DNA of 48,298 nucleotides from Methylocystis sp. (GTDB lineage: Bacteria > Pseudomonadota > Alphaproteobacteria > Rhizobiales > Beijerinckiaceae), in contig JALHNQ010000023.1 of NCBI GenBank assembly GCA_022843405.1, forward strand, positions 1 through 48,298. Direction: 5' to 3'. Positions 10,607-14,446 of the stretch are shown here, in pieces (the first letter of the stretch is position 1; each line of letters begins with the position of its first letter). The position numbers and the translations under genes are program-made. Under the pieces are notes generated by a model. That model was not told the origin of the DNA, searched no databases, and was given only the letters and a program-made list of their open reading frames with translations.

Positions 10607-11308
10607 ATGCGCGTTTTATTGATCGAGGATGACAGCGCGACGGCTCAAAGCATCGAGCTGATGCTCAAATCCGAGAATTTCAACGTCTATACGACCGATC
10701 TCGGCGAAGAGGGCATCGATCTCGGCAAGCTTTACGACTATGACATCATCCTTCTCGACCTCAATCTGCCCGACATGTCCGGCTATGAGGTTTTGCGCAC
10801 GCTGCGCGTCGCCAAGGTGAAGACCCCGATCCTGATTCTCTCCGGACTCGCCGGCATCGAAGACAAGGTGAAGGGCCTGGGATTCGGCGCCGACGACTAT
10901 CTAACGAAGCCCTTCCACAAGGACGAACTCGTTGCGCGCATCCACGCGATCGTGCGCCGCTCCAAGGGCCACGCCCAATCGGTCATCATCACCGGCGAGC
11001 TCGTCGTCAATCTCGATCAGAAGACGGTAGAGGTCAGCGGCGCCCGCGTGCATCTCACCGGCAAAGAATATCAGATGCTCGAGCTGCTCTCGCTGCGCAA
11101 GGGCACGACGCTGACCAAGGAAATGTTCCTCAATCATCTCTATGGCGGGATGGACGAGCCGGAACTGAAGATCATCGACGTCTTCATCTGCAAATTGCGC
11201 AAGAAGCTCGCCAACGCCAGCGAAGGCCGCAATTATATCGAAACCGTCTGGGGCCGCGGCTATGTGCTGCGCGAGCCGAGCGAAGCCGCCGAGCGGATCA
11301 CGGCTTGA
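10607..11308 (+). CDS. ctrA: Cell-cycle response regulator CtrA
   Basis: CtrA is the OmpR-family master regulator of the alphaproteobacterial cell cycle, activated by phosphate from CckA through ChpT. The 233-residue protein has a receiver domain with acidic pair D8/D9, phosphoacceptor D51 in [16 protein letters not shown], and K in [14 protein letters not shown], then a winged-helix DNA-binding domain ([54 protein letters not shown] cut here as several blocks) nearly identical to known CtrA proteins. A GGGGA ribosome-binding sequence precedes the ATG. chpT lies 2.3 kb downstream on the other strand, beyond an accessory island. The intrinsic terminator appears to be the palindrome at 11341-11358. 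Confidence 0.97.
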
Positions 11309-11332: not shown

Positions 11333-11641
11333 TCACGTTTCCCGCAAAAATTTGCGGGTGATTTTGCGCCGACCGTGAGCAATCCGCATAATCATCACAG
11401 TGTGGTCGGCGGCTATATGCTCGTAGATCACAACGTAAGGGGAGATCACGCCAATTCGGACATGCTTCCCGATGGCGCGGCGGGGCGCCCCACTGTCGGG
11501 ATGCTGCATCAGGCGTTCATAGAGTTTTTCAAAAGCGGCGGCGTATGCGCGAGAGACGGAGCGCCCCGCCTTGTCTCGAAGATCGGTGAGAATGTCGGCC
11601 GTGTCGGCTTGCGCCAGTAAGGAAACGATGAGCCGCGCCAT
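11333..11641 (-). CDS. ParE/RelE superfamily toxin
   Basis: A 102-residue protein of the ParE/RelE fold: YAAAFEKLYERLMQHPDSGAPRRAIGKHVRIGVISPYVVIYEH and the terminal basic stretch IMRIAHGRRKI match ParE-type toxins, which poison gyrase or, in RelE relatives, cleave mRNA on the ribosome. The ending IAHGRR is the signature that most favours this family. Its ATG overlaps the antitoxin stop (TAATG), the classic antitoxin-first operon. The last codons contain a palindrome that would serve as the ctrA terminator on the other strand. The target is not predictable from sequence alone. Confidence 0.87.
   Translation of the reverse strand: MARLIVSLLAQADTADILTDLRDKAGRSVSRAYAAAFEKLYERLMQHPDSGAPRRAIGKHVRIGVISPYVVIYEHIAADHTVMIMRIAHGRRKITRKFLRET
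11341..11358 (+). terminator. ctrA terminator inside the toxin gene 3' end
   Basis: CCCGCAAA and TTTGCGGG form a perfect 8-bp inverted repeat around AA, followed on the plus strand by TGATTTTGC. It lies 32 bases after the ctrA stop and within the last coding codons of the convergent toxin gene. It is the only hairpin near the ctrA end. Confidence 0.5.
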
Positions 11642-11904
11642 TAATCCTTGAGAGACGCAAGGAGCGCCGCGTTATGCGCTTTGTGTTCCTCAAGGGAAAC
11701 AAATTCGCCCCGCGCTATCGCGGTACGCGCTTCATCGACCAAAGGCTTCGCCCATGCCATATCATCGTCGTCGTCTTCGGCGGCGAGTTCGGCAATGCGG
11801 TCGTCGATTAACCGGCGGGCCGCCTCTTCAATCGAAGCGAAATCGCCAGTCGCAATGTGGGCTTTAATCCAAGCCTCTTGTTCGGGGGTGAGCGTGATTG
11901 ACAT
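11641..11904 (-). CDS. ParD-like antitoxin
   Basis: An 87-residue antitoxin-type protein. The N-terminal part MSITLTPEQEAWIKAHIATGDFASIEEAARRLIDDRIAEL, shown here in pieces, has the ribbon-helix-helix pattern of ParD/CopG antitoxins: a short strand, then helices with (S/T)xxExxRxxID. An acidic stretch (AAEDDDDD) and a C-terminal arm (FVSLEEHKAHNAALLASLKD) would wrap the toxin. The start at 11904 is chosen; the frame continues to 12027 through sequence unlike the family and through the predicted promoter. Such antitoxins repress their own operon. The toxin follows with a TAATG overlap. Confidence 0.85.
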   Translation of the reverse strand: MSITLTPEQEAWIKAHIATGDFASIEEAARRLIDDRIAELAAEDDDDDMAWAKPLVDEARTAIARGEFVSLEEHKAHNAALLASLKD

Positions 11905-11911
11905 AGCTTTT

Positions 11912-11942
11912 TTATACCACAGAACGTCCCTGTTTTGACAGG
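11912..11942 (-). promoter_or_regulatory. Toxin-antitoxin promoter and operator
   Basis: On the minus strand GGTATAAAAAAGCTATG places a TATAAA-like -10 element close to the antitoxin start. Upstream, CCTGT and ACAGG (11929-11933 and 11938-11942) form an inverted repeat over four bases, at the position expected for the -35 region and thus for autorepression by a ribbon-helix-helix antitoxin. Confidence 0.4.
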
Positions 11943-12122
11943 AAAAAGCCGGACCGCTTTCGCACGTCATTTTCGCACAAAGAAGCCCTTGAAAATCAAG
12001 GGCGTGGTTTTGTGCATAATTTTGCATGCCTTATAGGTCGCCGGTCTTACTCGAGATACGACAAGGAGGGGCCATTGACCGTTTTCAGAAGGCGGCCAGT
12101 CTTGCAGCCCATACGTTGTGCA

Positions 12123-13226
12123 TCATCGCCCCGACCGCCAGTTCAACCCGAGTTTGTCAGCCATATCCGGGTCAAATTTTACGCGACCATTCGGTGGCAC
12201 ATAGAGGATCGAACTAAAAACTAGCTTGGCCTTTGCTAAATCCGACAGCGGTATTCTCTCAATTTCTGGCTGAGACGTCGGATAGGGAGATGCGTGGTAC
12301 AAAACCACTTCGTGGTCGGCCCCATAGTACTCAGTCAAGTAACTTGACAACAGTGGGAGGCGCTCACGCACGGCAAGATGCGGAGGATTCCACAAAACCT
12401 CGCCCAGGACTCCGACTTGCCAAAGGATTAAACCCGCTGAGGGATCAAAATTGATTTTGTTGACTAAGAACGATGTCGCTTCATAGCTTTGCAGACCAGA
12501 TTGGCCAGGATCGATACCAAGGTCAGCAATCAGATTATCTTCTGCAGAAATGCCGGGCAGCATTCTAGCCTCGAATCCGTTTACGCGAGCGCGTTTGATA
12601 GATTCCCGCGCTGGATTGGAAAAAACGCCCGGGTGTCCGTAAAAAACTACGCAGACATCTCCACTCTCCTGAAGGCAGGACAAGATTCTGTCGACCATTG
12701 CTTCATACGCAACGAGCCGATGCTTTCCTTTTAGGTAGAGAGGAGCCATTGACTCCGCTGTCGGATTAAGTTCTTGAACCCATGTCTCTGAAATTGGGTC
12801 CGCCAAAAGGTACAGCACTTTCGTGGCCTGTACGATGCACACACGAGCCTCAGCTGTCGTCTGAAGACCTCCGCGAATTCCTGTTCCCACAATTGTGAGA
12901 CCGCTTCGTTTCCAGAGCGAGTCGGGTTCTCCCCAGGCTGTTGCAGGTGGGCTAACTGATTTGGCGATCGGACCTGAAACGACCACGTCATACTGGGGGG
13001 GCGGAGGCGGCAGGGTAATGGTCAGGTCCAAATCTTTAGATGCTAAGTGATCAGGTAATTCATGAAAAAGAAGTTGTGACAGATTTTCCTCCCTACCCGC
13101 TAAAATGGCTTCGCACTGGTCTGAGGAAAGCCCGGCGTCCTTCATCGCGGCTTCTGGCTCACGCCGAAAACGTGCGTAGACCTCCGTTGAAGTAGCGAGC
13201 GCATAAAAAAAATCACGCAATTTCAT
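12123..13226 (-). CDS. Borosin-type peptide N-methyltransferase with fused N-terminal precursor-like domain
   Basis: A 367-residue protein. Residues 109-367 are a tetrapyrrole-methylase-fold SAM methyltransferase closely resembling borosin alpha-N-methyltransferases such as Shewanella SonM: LTIVGTGIRGG (110-120), YGHPGVF (196-202), LPGISAEDNLIADLGIDPG (223-241), and the pattern Y164-x5-R170-x3-Y174 in LYLKGKHRLVAYEAM, where borosin enzymes have catalytic Tyr/Arg residues. Residues 1-58 (KLRDFFYALATSTEVYARF, then EPEAAMKDAGLS, then QCEAILAGREENL) resemble the LigA-like helical domain of split-borosin precursors such as SonA. A linker, 59-108, contains PPPPP and QYDVVVSGP. These enzymes methylate backbone amides of a core peptide. 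ATG 13226 follows GGAGAG; a longer frame to 13286 lacks such a signal. GC content is clearly below that of its neighbours, suggesting transfer. No separate precursor gene is seen. Confidence 0.85.
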   Translation of the reverse strand: MKLRDFFYALATSTEVYARFRREPEAAMKDAGLSSDQCEAILAGREENLSQLLFHELPDHLASKDLDLTITLPPPPPQYDVVVSGPIAKSVSPPATAWGEPDSLWKRSGLTIVGTGIRGGLQTTAEARVCIVQATKVLYLLADPISETWVQELNPTAESMAPLYLKGKHRLVAYEAMVDRILSCLQESGDVCVVFYGHPGVFSNPARESIKRARVNGFEARMLPGISAEDNLIADLGIDPGQSGLQSYEATSFLVNKINFDPSAGLILWQVGVLGEVLWNPPHLAVRERLPLLSSYLTEYYGADHEVVLYHASPYPTSQPEIERIPLSDLAKAKLVFSSILYVPPNGRVKFDPDMADKLGLNWRSGR

Positions 13227-13330
13227 ATTTCGCTCTCCGGTAGGTCGAGTACGGAGCATAAGCCTTGAATGCCCTGTCATACCCAATTGGTCAAATTAGC
13301 ATCACGCTCCATTGCCCATTATGGAAACAC

Positions 13331-13356
13331 AAAAGCCCGCCCTTCGGCGGGCTTTT
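13331..13356. terminator. Strong bidirectional terminator
   Basis: AAAAGCCCGCC and GGCGGGCTTTT form a perfect 11-bp stem with a 4-base loop, with A-tract on one side and T-tract on the other, so it can stop transcription in both directions. It lies 105 bp upstream of the borosin-like start and 214 bp past the chpT stop. On the minus strand it would end chpT transcription and insulate the borosin gene. The stretch from 13357 to 13569 holds no gene I can support. Confidence 0.85.
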
Positions 13357-13569
13357 GCATATTCCGACATCTCTCAAAAGGGTGCGATTTTTTCGGGCTA
13401 AATCCGCGCTGCGAAATTGTTGATTTTTGCACGCAAGACCGTCGCGATGATCCCATACGGCCTTGGCCTCGCCGAGACCGGGGTCGCTAGCTGCCAAGGG
13501 GGAATCCGCGCGACGCCCGTCTACTCCGGCGCGGAGCCGCGAAAAGCCGCTTCCCCGCCGGGCGCCTTC

Positions 13570-14259
13570 TCAGGCGGCGGCGCTTTCCGCCGAGCCGTCC
13601 GACTCCGCCGTCTGCGCTTGCATCGGGACCGCCTCGATCGTCACGAGTTCGGGCTCGCCCGACACGACGACCCGCATTCCGCACGCCTTTGAAACAAGCC
13701 CAGCGTAATAGGCCTGGACCGCGCGCGCGTCGATCGCGCCCTCTTCCGATTCGCCTTCGAGCAGACGGGGCACGTTCGACGCGACGCGGGCATTGACGCC
13801 CTTCGCCTCGATCTTGAACGCCAGCCCCTCGTCTTCGCCCGAGCAGCTCACGGAAATGACGCCGCCGCGCGGAATCGCCGCGTCGGCGAGAACGCAGAGG
13901 TTCAGCAGCAGTTTAACCTTGTTCTTCGACATCAACACGCGCGGAATGCTCCACGCGAGCTGCGTGCGTTCGTCGGCGATCAGTTGACGCGTCACCAGTT
14001 CCGCGTCGCCCGTGTCGATCGACGCGCCCTTGGAGCCCGCCGCGCCGAAGGCGAGCCGGCAGAATTGCAGCCGCGCCGAGGCCTCATTGGCGCTCGACTT
14101 GATCAGCGCCAGCGCATGGCCGCGCATTTCGGCGTCCTTTTCCTCTTCAAGGACTTCAAGGCCGTTGACGATCGCGCCGACAGGCGAGATGACGTCGTGG
14201 CAAACCCTCGACGACAGGAGCGCGGCGAGATCGAGTGGGTCGAGCGAGAATTTGGTCAT
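13570..14259 (-). CDS. chpT: Histidine phosphotransferase ChpT
   Basis: ChpT carries phosphate from the hybrid kinase CckA to CtrA and CpdR. The 229-residue protein begins with the dimerising DHp-like domain containing the phospho-histidine H21 in LSSRVCHDVISPVGAIVNGLEVL, then a degenerate ATPase-like domain (VLMSKNKVKLLLNLCVLADAAIPRGG). The motif CHDxISPVGAI is diagnostic. I start at ATG 14259, 4 codons inside a frame opening with TTG at 14271, since GGATGGGG precedes it. It is convergently placed relative to ctrA with an accessory island between. The C-terminus ends in an alanine/serine-rich tail. Confidence 0.93.
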   Translation of the reverse strand: MTKFSLDPLDLAALLSSRVCHDVISPVGAIVNGLEVLEEEKDAEMRGHALALIKSSANEASARLQFCRLAFGAAGSKGASIDTGDAELVTRQLIADERTQLAWSIPRVLMSKNKVKLLLNLCVLADAAIPRGGVISVSCSGEDEGLAFKIEAKGVNARVASNVPRLLEGESEEGAIDARAVQAYYAGLVSKACGMRVVVSGEPELVTIEAVPMQAQTAESDGSAESAAA

Positions 14260-14446
14260 GGCCCCATCCAAAACGGGCGAAGGCGGCGATGTCTTAGGGA
14301 GGTTCGGTCGAACTTCCTTTAAGAATGCGCGACGGATGGCGCGTCGCGCGAATCACCGCATTCAGGCTCATCGAAACTAGCGGGCGCGGCGCGGATTGCA
14401 AATGACGCGCGGCTCAATTGTAAAACGAGCGCGGAGAAATCGAGCA

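Follow-up and report, generated by a model that had tools for sequence, protein, structure and literature searches.

The window analysed here, the whole 48,298-nucleotide stretch of Methylocystis sp. DNA, carries on its minus strand a gene for a 367-residue protein (the window protein), in which a borosin-binding domain (BBD) is followed by a linker and a borosin alpha-N-methyltransferase (Table 1). The reading frame in the earlier note is real and intact, with an ATG start, GGAG ahead of the ATG and zero internal stops when read from the DNA. The gene is flanked by what we take to be ctrA (10607-11308) and a chpT-like gene (13570-14271, HPTransfase), and the interval between them also holds a ParE toxin gene and the neighbour of that gene. 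The toxin gene and its upstream neighbour (11333-12027) encode proteins that are 93-95% identical in a congener (L133), which has the toxin pair but gave no match to the borosin gene. Four congener loci show both ctrA and chpT, and the gap between the two genes there is about 190 (L136), 280 (L139), 810 (L132) and 830 (L131) bases, versus 2,260 bases in the window.

Table 1. Coordinates of the fused borosin gene and its parts in the window
Feature	Position	Strand	Basis or remark
Whole ORF, fused borosin protein, 367 aa, stop included	12123..13226	-	AlphaFold mean pLDDT 86.9, pTM 0.84
Borosin-binding domain (BBD), residues 1-56, five-helix bundle, SonA leader type	13059..13226	-	phmmer, profile, model, Foldseek
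Interdomain linker, residues 57-108, mainly disordered in the model	12903..13058	-	pLDDT; length variable in the clade
Candidate core peptide, residues 65-85, DLDLTITLPPPPPQYDVVVSG	12972..13034	-	position like split-precursor tails; without homology support
Borosin alpha-N-methyltransferase domain, residues 109-367 and stop, assigned by sequence	12123..12902	-	SonM/OphMA sequence matches; Foldseek
Y164 codon (= SonM Y58)	12735..12737	-	alignment
R170 codon (= SonM R67)	12717..12719	-	alignment
Y174 codon (= SonM Y71)	12705..12707	-	alignment
Y196 codon (= SonM Y93)	12639..12641	-	alignment

Within the genus the gene was found in only 1 of 39 genomes, its own, and in the family sample 5 of 199 genomes, its own included, had a match. 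At E<=0.001 the order had matches in 8 of 297 genomes and the class in 6 of 385 (own genome included; several of these are weak and near the threshold). The GC content is 49-55% over the gene versus approximately 57-71% farther out, and the gene is probably an acquired low-GC insert. Matches were found in 20 of 72,556 plasmid records, and the three with query coverage of 80% or more are all split in their DNA; phage records gave no match. A sigma-70 consensus promoter was not found, though this search has little power because 1.1 consensus matches are expected by chance. Next to the borosin gene in the window, neither a protease gene nor a transporter gene was recognised, and nothing among the small ORFs listed in 11900-12122 and 13227-13570 looks like a BBD precursor. 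A 33-residue frame at 11935-12036 (plus strand, TTG start) ends in GVVLCIILHAL, a hydrophobic tail resembling split borosin cores; no ribosome-binding site was seen before it, and the frame is probably a product of chance.

The C-terminal part of the protein was read in the earlier note as a borosin alpha-N-methyltransferase, and the database searches bear this out. A sequence search of the PDB matched residues 109-361 to SonM at E=2.7e-50, while OphMA and its relatives matched the domain at 1e-38 to 1e-42 (OphMA at about 1e-41), and all 32 PDB sequence matches at E<=1 were borosin methyltransferases or SonA. The full-length AlphaFold model is a monomer built on an alignment (A3) in which the split precursor rows were misplaced by MAFFT over the second half of their BBD. 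Foldseek matched this model to SonM with E=7.6e-29 and a TM-score by target of 0.89, and the best 50 of 219 matches at E<=0.001 were all borosin proteins. The GTGIRGG and YGHPGVF motifs are present, and Y164, R170 and Y174 lie where the earlier note placed them. In a pairwise alignment numbered by hand, SonM Y58, R67, Y71 and Y93 are conserved as Y164, R170, Y174 and Y196; mutants of these SonM residues are described as having catalytic efficiency lowered to varying extents, least in Y93F (PMC8429565). The only Pfam family above its cut-off was TP_methylase (residues 110-247, 1e-13). Cobalamin and diphthine methylases, with which the domain might instead have clustered, were also considered, but the PDB search at E<=1 returned only borosin proteins, and the NCBIfam matches to YabN and CobI/CbiL were far under their cut-offs. 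With the sequence and fold of SonM/OphMA and four active-site residues in place, residues 109-367 are, judged by sequence, a borosin alpha-N-methyltransferase, and a chance match is excluded because the E-value to SonM is 3e-50.

In the N-terminal domain, a phmmer search with the first 60 residues as query paired residues 3-52 with SonA 4-53 (E=1.4e-4); with the whole protein as query the E-value was 0.0026. A BBD family profile (A2), made from 22 BBDs with the window protein among them, picked up SonA (E=6e-15) and, at about 4e-5, the OphMA clasp. Pfam LigA was sub-threshold at residues 4-45 (0.013; 16 bits versus the required 25.3). The full model has helices at residues 3-12, 14-22, 24-30, 35-43 and 46-54, with the bundle ending near residue 54, and the mean pLDDT of successive ten-residue blocks from the N-terminus is 92, 94, 97, 95 and 90, then 75 at 51-60. 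A second AlphaFold model, of residues 1-89 only, was built on a better alignment (A4) and had a mean pLDDT of 76.5. SonA chains made up 30 of the 43 Foldseek matches to this model at E<=10 and held all the top ranks, with an rmsd of about 1 Å for most, TM-scores by target up to 0.90 and E-values of 0.018-0.16; no E-value passed 0.001. SonA is described as having a BBD of five bundled helices, with homology to a part of the OphMA clasp (PMC8429565). Both the five-helix bundle and the SonA sequence profile were found here, so that residues 3-54 are a SonA-type borosin-binding domain. The earlier note had assigned residues 1-58 to such a SonA-like precursor domain and had given the order of precursor-like helices, linker and methyltransferase in one chain, and both points agree with the single ORF and the model. 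Neither of the outcomes that the note named as refuting its reading was seen.

Relatives of the protein were collected in a scan of genome_contigs that gave 479 confirmed loci, and the best 80 of these, ranked by similarity to the window protein, were inspected. Five have a BBD-first fusion in one frame, in 60 the BBD is encoded by an ORF of its own and 15 show no BBD, though some of the 15 have short flanks and the sorting of the 80 loci into upstream and downstream BBDs is rough. It should be noted that the N-fused share of 5/80 is biased upward because the relatives were ranked by similarity to the window protein. The five N-terminal fusions come from a Terriglobia MAG (L019), one Acidobacteriaceae MAG (L020 and L021), an Eremiobacterota MAG (L085) and Streptomyces melanogenes (L094). 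A tree of 95 rows was made from 98 methyltransferase segments at E<1e-20 by removing the window copy, L002 (the same as L061) and short segments, which included the broken L023, and adding the window protein (P0001). The window protein, L019, L020 and L021 form one clade with support of 100/98, and a split system (L027) adjoins it. L085 and L094 form a separate clade (100/96) elsewhere on the tree and have a short linker without an evident core, and the C-terminal fusions L007, L013, L014 and L018 are placed elsewhere again. The N-terminal fusion label requires two changes on the tree, and 0% of 200 bootstrap trees, in a bootstrap that had not settled, need only one. Therefore the tree shows that, within the sampled sequences, N-terminal BBD fusion arose at least twice. 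The possibility that the fusion is an assembly error was rejected: the flanks of the insert both match congeners and three other proteins carry the same fusion, and an accident is unlikely because the four fused proteins form a clade at 100/98.

The methyltransferase domains of L019, L020 and L021 are 53-61% identical to that of the window protein. The class of one of the acidobacterial genomes (G865) was represented by 399 genomes, of which 11 match at E<=1e-10, and only G864 and G865 of these are N-fused. BBD matches at E<=0.1 in G864 and G865 (Acidobacteriota) were the fused proteins and one match at 0.07, and the genome of L085 has seven more BBD-profile matches with E-values of 3e-5 to 0.09. 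The genes around the three fusions were assigned by Pfam. The neighbours of L019 encode a protein kinase, an aldo/keto reductase, a SurA-like protein and an Omp85 protein; L020 has a short-chain dehydrogenase, a TPR protein and one ORF without a match; and L021 lies near genes for DNA polymerase III alpha and a DUF6496 protein. The Pfam search, which covered ten of the larger ORFs around L019, L020 and L021, recognised no transporter. These surroundings look unlike a dedicated cluster, with one possible exception, a pro-kumamolisin (secreted peptidase) gene about 1.7 kb from L020 on the opposite strand that is cut by the edge of the locus.

In the linker between the two domains, residues 63-90 have pLDDT below 50 in the full model, with short helices at 59-62 and 101-105. 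The 1-89 model places strands of low confidence at 67-69 and 82-84, where the full model has none. Residues 65-85 contain DLDLTITL...QYDVVVSG and are near the position of the hydrophobic tails (e.g. DDINVTIVVVV) of split precursors in related bacteria. The best hydrophobic 7-mer past residue 56 scores 4/7 in the window protein, and at least 5 in 23 of 60 split precursors. In the SonA register (63/65) the window protein has A62 and K64, and its hydrophobic run begins at 66.

The linkers of the fused relatives vary more than the domains on either side of them. They are 73 (L019), 95 (L021) and 139 (L020) residues long and repeated, whereas the window linker has 52 residues without clear repeats. 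The L020 linker has a 108-bp tandem unit in 1.9 copies with 96% matches, the L021 linker repeats a 16-residue unit, MLEEFPQPDPPEEPEE, that was read by eye and missed by the repeat finder, and two stretches of the L019 linker align with each other at a level that only 6 of 2000 shuffles reached. The paralogues L020 and L021 have 64% identity in the BBD, 37% in the linker and 74% in the methyltransferase, and their linkers share one conserved stretch adjoining the enzyme, EPLDxxLDLAQDAVL (0/2000 shuffles). As read from these sequences, a conserved leader, a variable repeated segment and an enzyme are the pattern expected of a precursor. Proline-rich linkers can also repeat and drift while not being substrates. 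The window linker had no significant similarity to those of the fused relatives, as shuffled sequences did as well in 226 (L020), 221 (L021) and 963 (L019) of 2000 trials. Against the tail of the first precursor of L061 the count was 43/2000, which is marginal and uncorrected for nine window comparisons, and likeness was absent against five other split-precursor tails (130, 1306, 1416, 1797 and 1218 of 2000). The core assignment at 65-85 is therefore a proposal only, because the resemblance of the linker to those of its relatives fails the shuffling tests.

Taken as a whole, the protein seems rather likely to be a self-contained borosin that has a BBD leader, a substrate segment and an alpha-N-methyltransferase in one chain and methylates its own linker. 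The BBD would pack on a methyltransferase domain, as SonA does on SonM, and guide the flexible linker (most probably its residues 65-85) into an active site, where Y164, R170, Y174 and Y196 would hold the backbone and S-adenosylmethionine in place while N-methylation proceeds step by step. The active protein would be a homodimer, by analogy with SonM and OphMA, and the linker could enter its own or its partner's active site. Self-modification is plausible, while methylation activity, the core position, dimerisation and product release are points that we infer.

An unlikely but possible alternative is that the fused BBD completes the enzyme and the true substrate is a separate peptide or protein. 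A class in which the methyltransferase and BBD are fused and the core is separate is in print, according to a figure legend (PMC11395268). In the second fusion, L085/L094, the linker is almost lacking, and therefore a BBD can be fused at the N-terminus without a core coming with it. The lack of conservation of the window linker against its relatives also fits a separate substrate, as does the hydrophobic run that ends the 33-residue frame on the opposite strand. However, the small ORFs listed on either side of the gene include none that looks like a BBD precursor, and in the genome (99.98% complete, 2.3% contamination) there is a single borosin methyltransferase and no second convincing BBD. 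In that genome the BBD profile found the fused protein at 2e-19; its only further matches were L100 (0.006) and L101 (0.085). Methylation of the protein's own linker is favoured over a separate substrate. A split (type IV) borosin with a hidden partner was rejected, given the single ORF and, for partners marked by a BBD, the same lack of a second convincing domain.

It is also conceivable, if rather doubtful, that the methylated segment is an internal hinge that is never cut out, so that the product would be a protein with a permanently N-methylated linker. This would suit a gene that stands alone in the window and has clade mates among seemingly unrelated genes, and a leader, repeated variable linker and enzyme that evolve as a unit. 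However, the secreted-peptidase gene near L020 could equally serve release. A protein that is catalytically inert or decaying after transfer, with the linker as a spacer only, is less probable still. The presence of the gene in one genome of the genus, its GC content and the negative promoter search would be in keeping with such decay, but the frame is intact, the four active-site residues are kept, the fold is predicted with high confidence and a clade that extends over two phyla has retained the architecture. A cobalamin or diphthine methylase, or other enzyme of the tetrapyrrole type, joined to an unrelated helical N-terminus is extremely improbable and was rejected on sequence and predicted structure. 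In its favour, no Pfam family but TP_methylase exceeds its cut-off, but all the PDB sequence matches at E<=1 and the best 50 of 219 structural matches are borosin proteins, and the N-terminus is a BBD.

The earlier note implied that this arrangement was unfamiliar, and this does not hold. Type 0 borosins, credited to Lee et al. 2024, are described in PMC11395268 as having N-terminal core peptides and a C-terminal methyltransferase, and because these are in print the order seen here is not unprecedented; in the terms of that description, the BBD-linker-methyltransferase architecture is not new. The window protein and type 0 borosins are both single chains with an N-terminal precursor part and a C-terminal methyltransferase, a likeness taken from that description. 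According to the same account, eleven earlier borosin types, type 0 among them, were counted and a type XI was added, the classes include those with all three parts fused and those with a fused methyltransferase and BBD and a separate core protein, and FpeAM and SkoAM are named among proteins with a C-terminal methyltransferase (PMC11395268). The type XI protein XulAM is like the window protein in having a C-terminal methyltransferase and an N-terminal domain, but that domain is called of unknown function there (PMC11395268) whereas the one described here is a BBD. SonM/SonA of Shewanella oneidensis (type IV, split; PDB 7LTC; PMC8429565) shares its methyltransferase family, BBD and catalytic residues with the window protein. 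It consists of two proteins with the core C-terminal after the SonA BBD, whereas any core in the window protein would be internal. The fungal OphMA/dbOphMA also have a methyltransferase, a BBD-like clasp and a core in a single chain, but in the order methyltransferase-clasp-core. The acidobacterial L019, L020 and L021 have the same fusion. The clade of Alphaproteobacteria and Acidobacteriota and the two origins of the fusion were not met in the literature searched, which did not include the type 0 source paper, and no claim of absence is made.

With the data presented here, the single-chain borosins that end in a methyltransferase gain a lineage from Alphaproteobacteria and Acidobacteriota, in a sample where, by the tree, the BBD-first fusion arose at least twice. 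A solitary protein of this size with a leader, candidate core and enzyme would be a compact test case for methylation of an internal core, with a possible use in the engineering of N-methylated peptides.

Several other loci met in these searches deserve mention. A viral scan with the single protein as query found no relative, and a viral scan with A1 found one IMG/VR contig (L144) with a borosin methyltransferase relative that is 40% identical over residues 105-361. Two of the C-terminal fusions, L013 and L014, have a methyltransferase and BBD followed by long C-terminal tandem repeats (EQHETEQHEAEQHVT; ELNDAA) that resemble multi-core tails. In Rhodoblastus sp. SSC7 (L061) and Rhizobium wuzhouense (L079), two tandem BBD precursors with differing hydrophobic tails stand before one methyltransferase. 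A conjugative plasmid of Bradyrhizobium sp. 155 (L143) has a split borosin locus whose annotation lists two SAM methyltransferases, a prolyl oligopeptidase and a TauD-type dioxygenase. In the genome of the window itself, L101 lies in a region read as fatty-acid synthesis. L100 (G000:C12, about 41-44 kb) is a 192-residue protein beside an MbnB/TglH/ChrH-type RiPP enzyme (Pfam E=2e-84), and it adjoins a protein with a Cys-Gly-rich tail. The N-terminus of L100 is the best match of the borosin BBD profile other than the window protein, and this is perhaps a RiPP locus and perhaps a hint that the partner domains of two RiPP classes share the fold.
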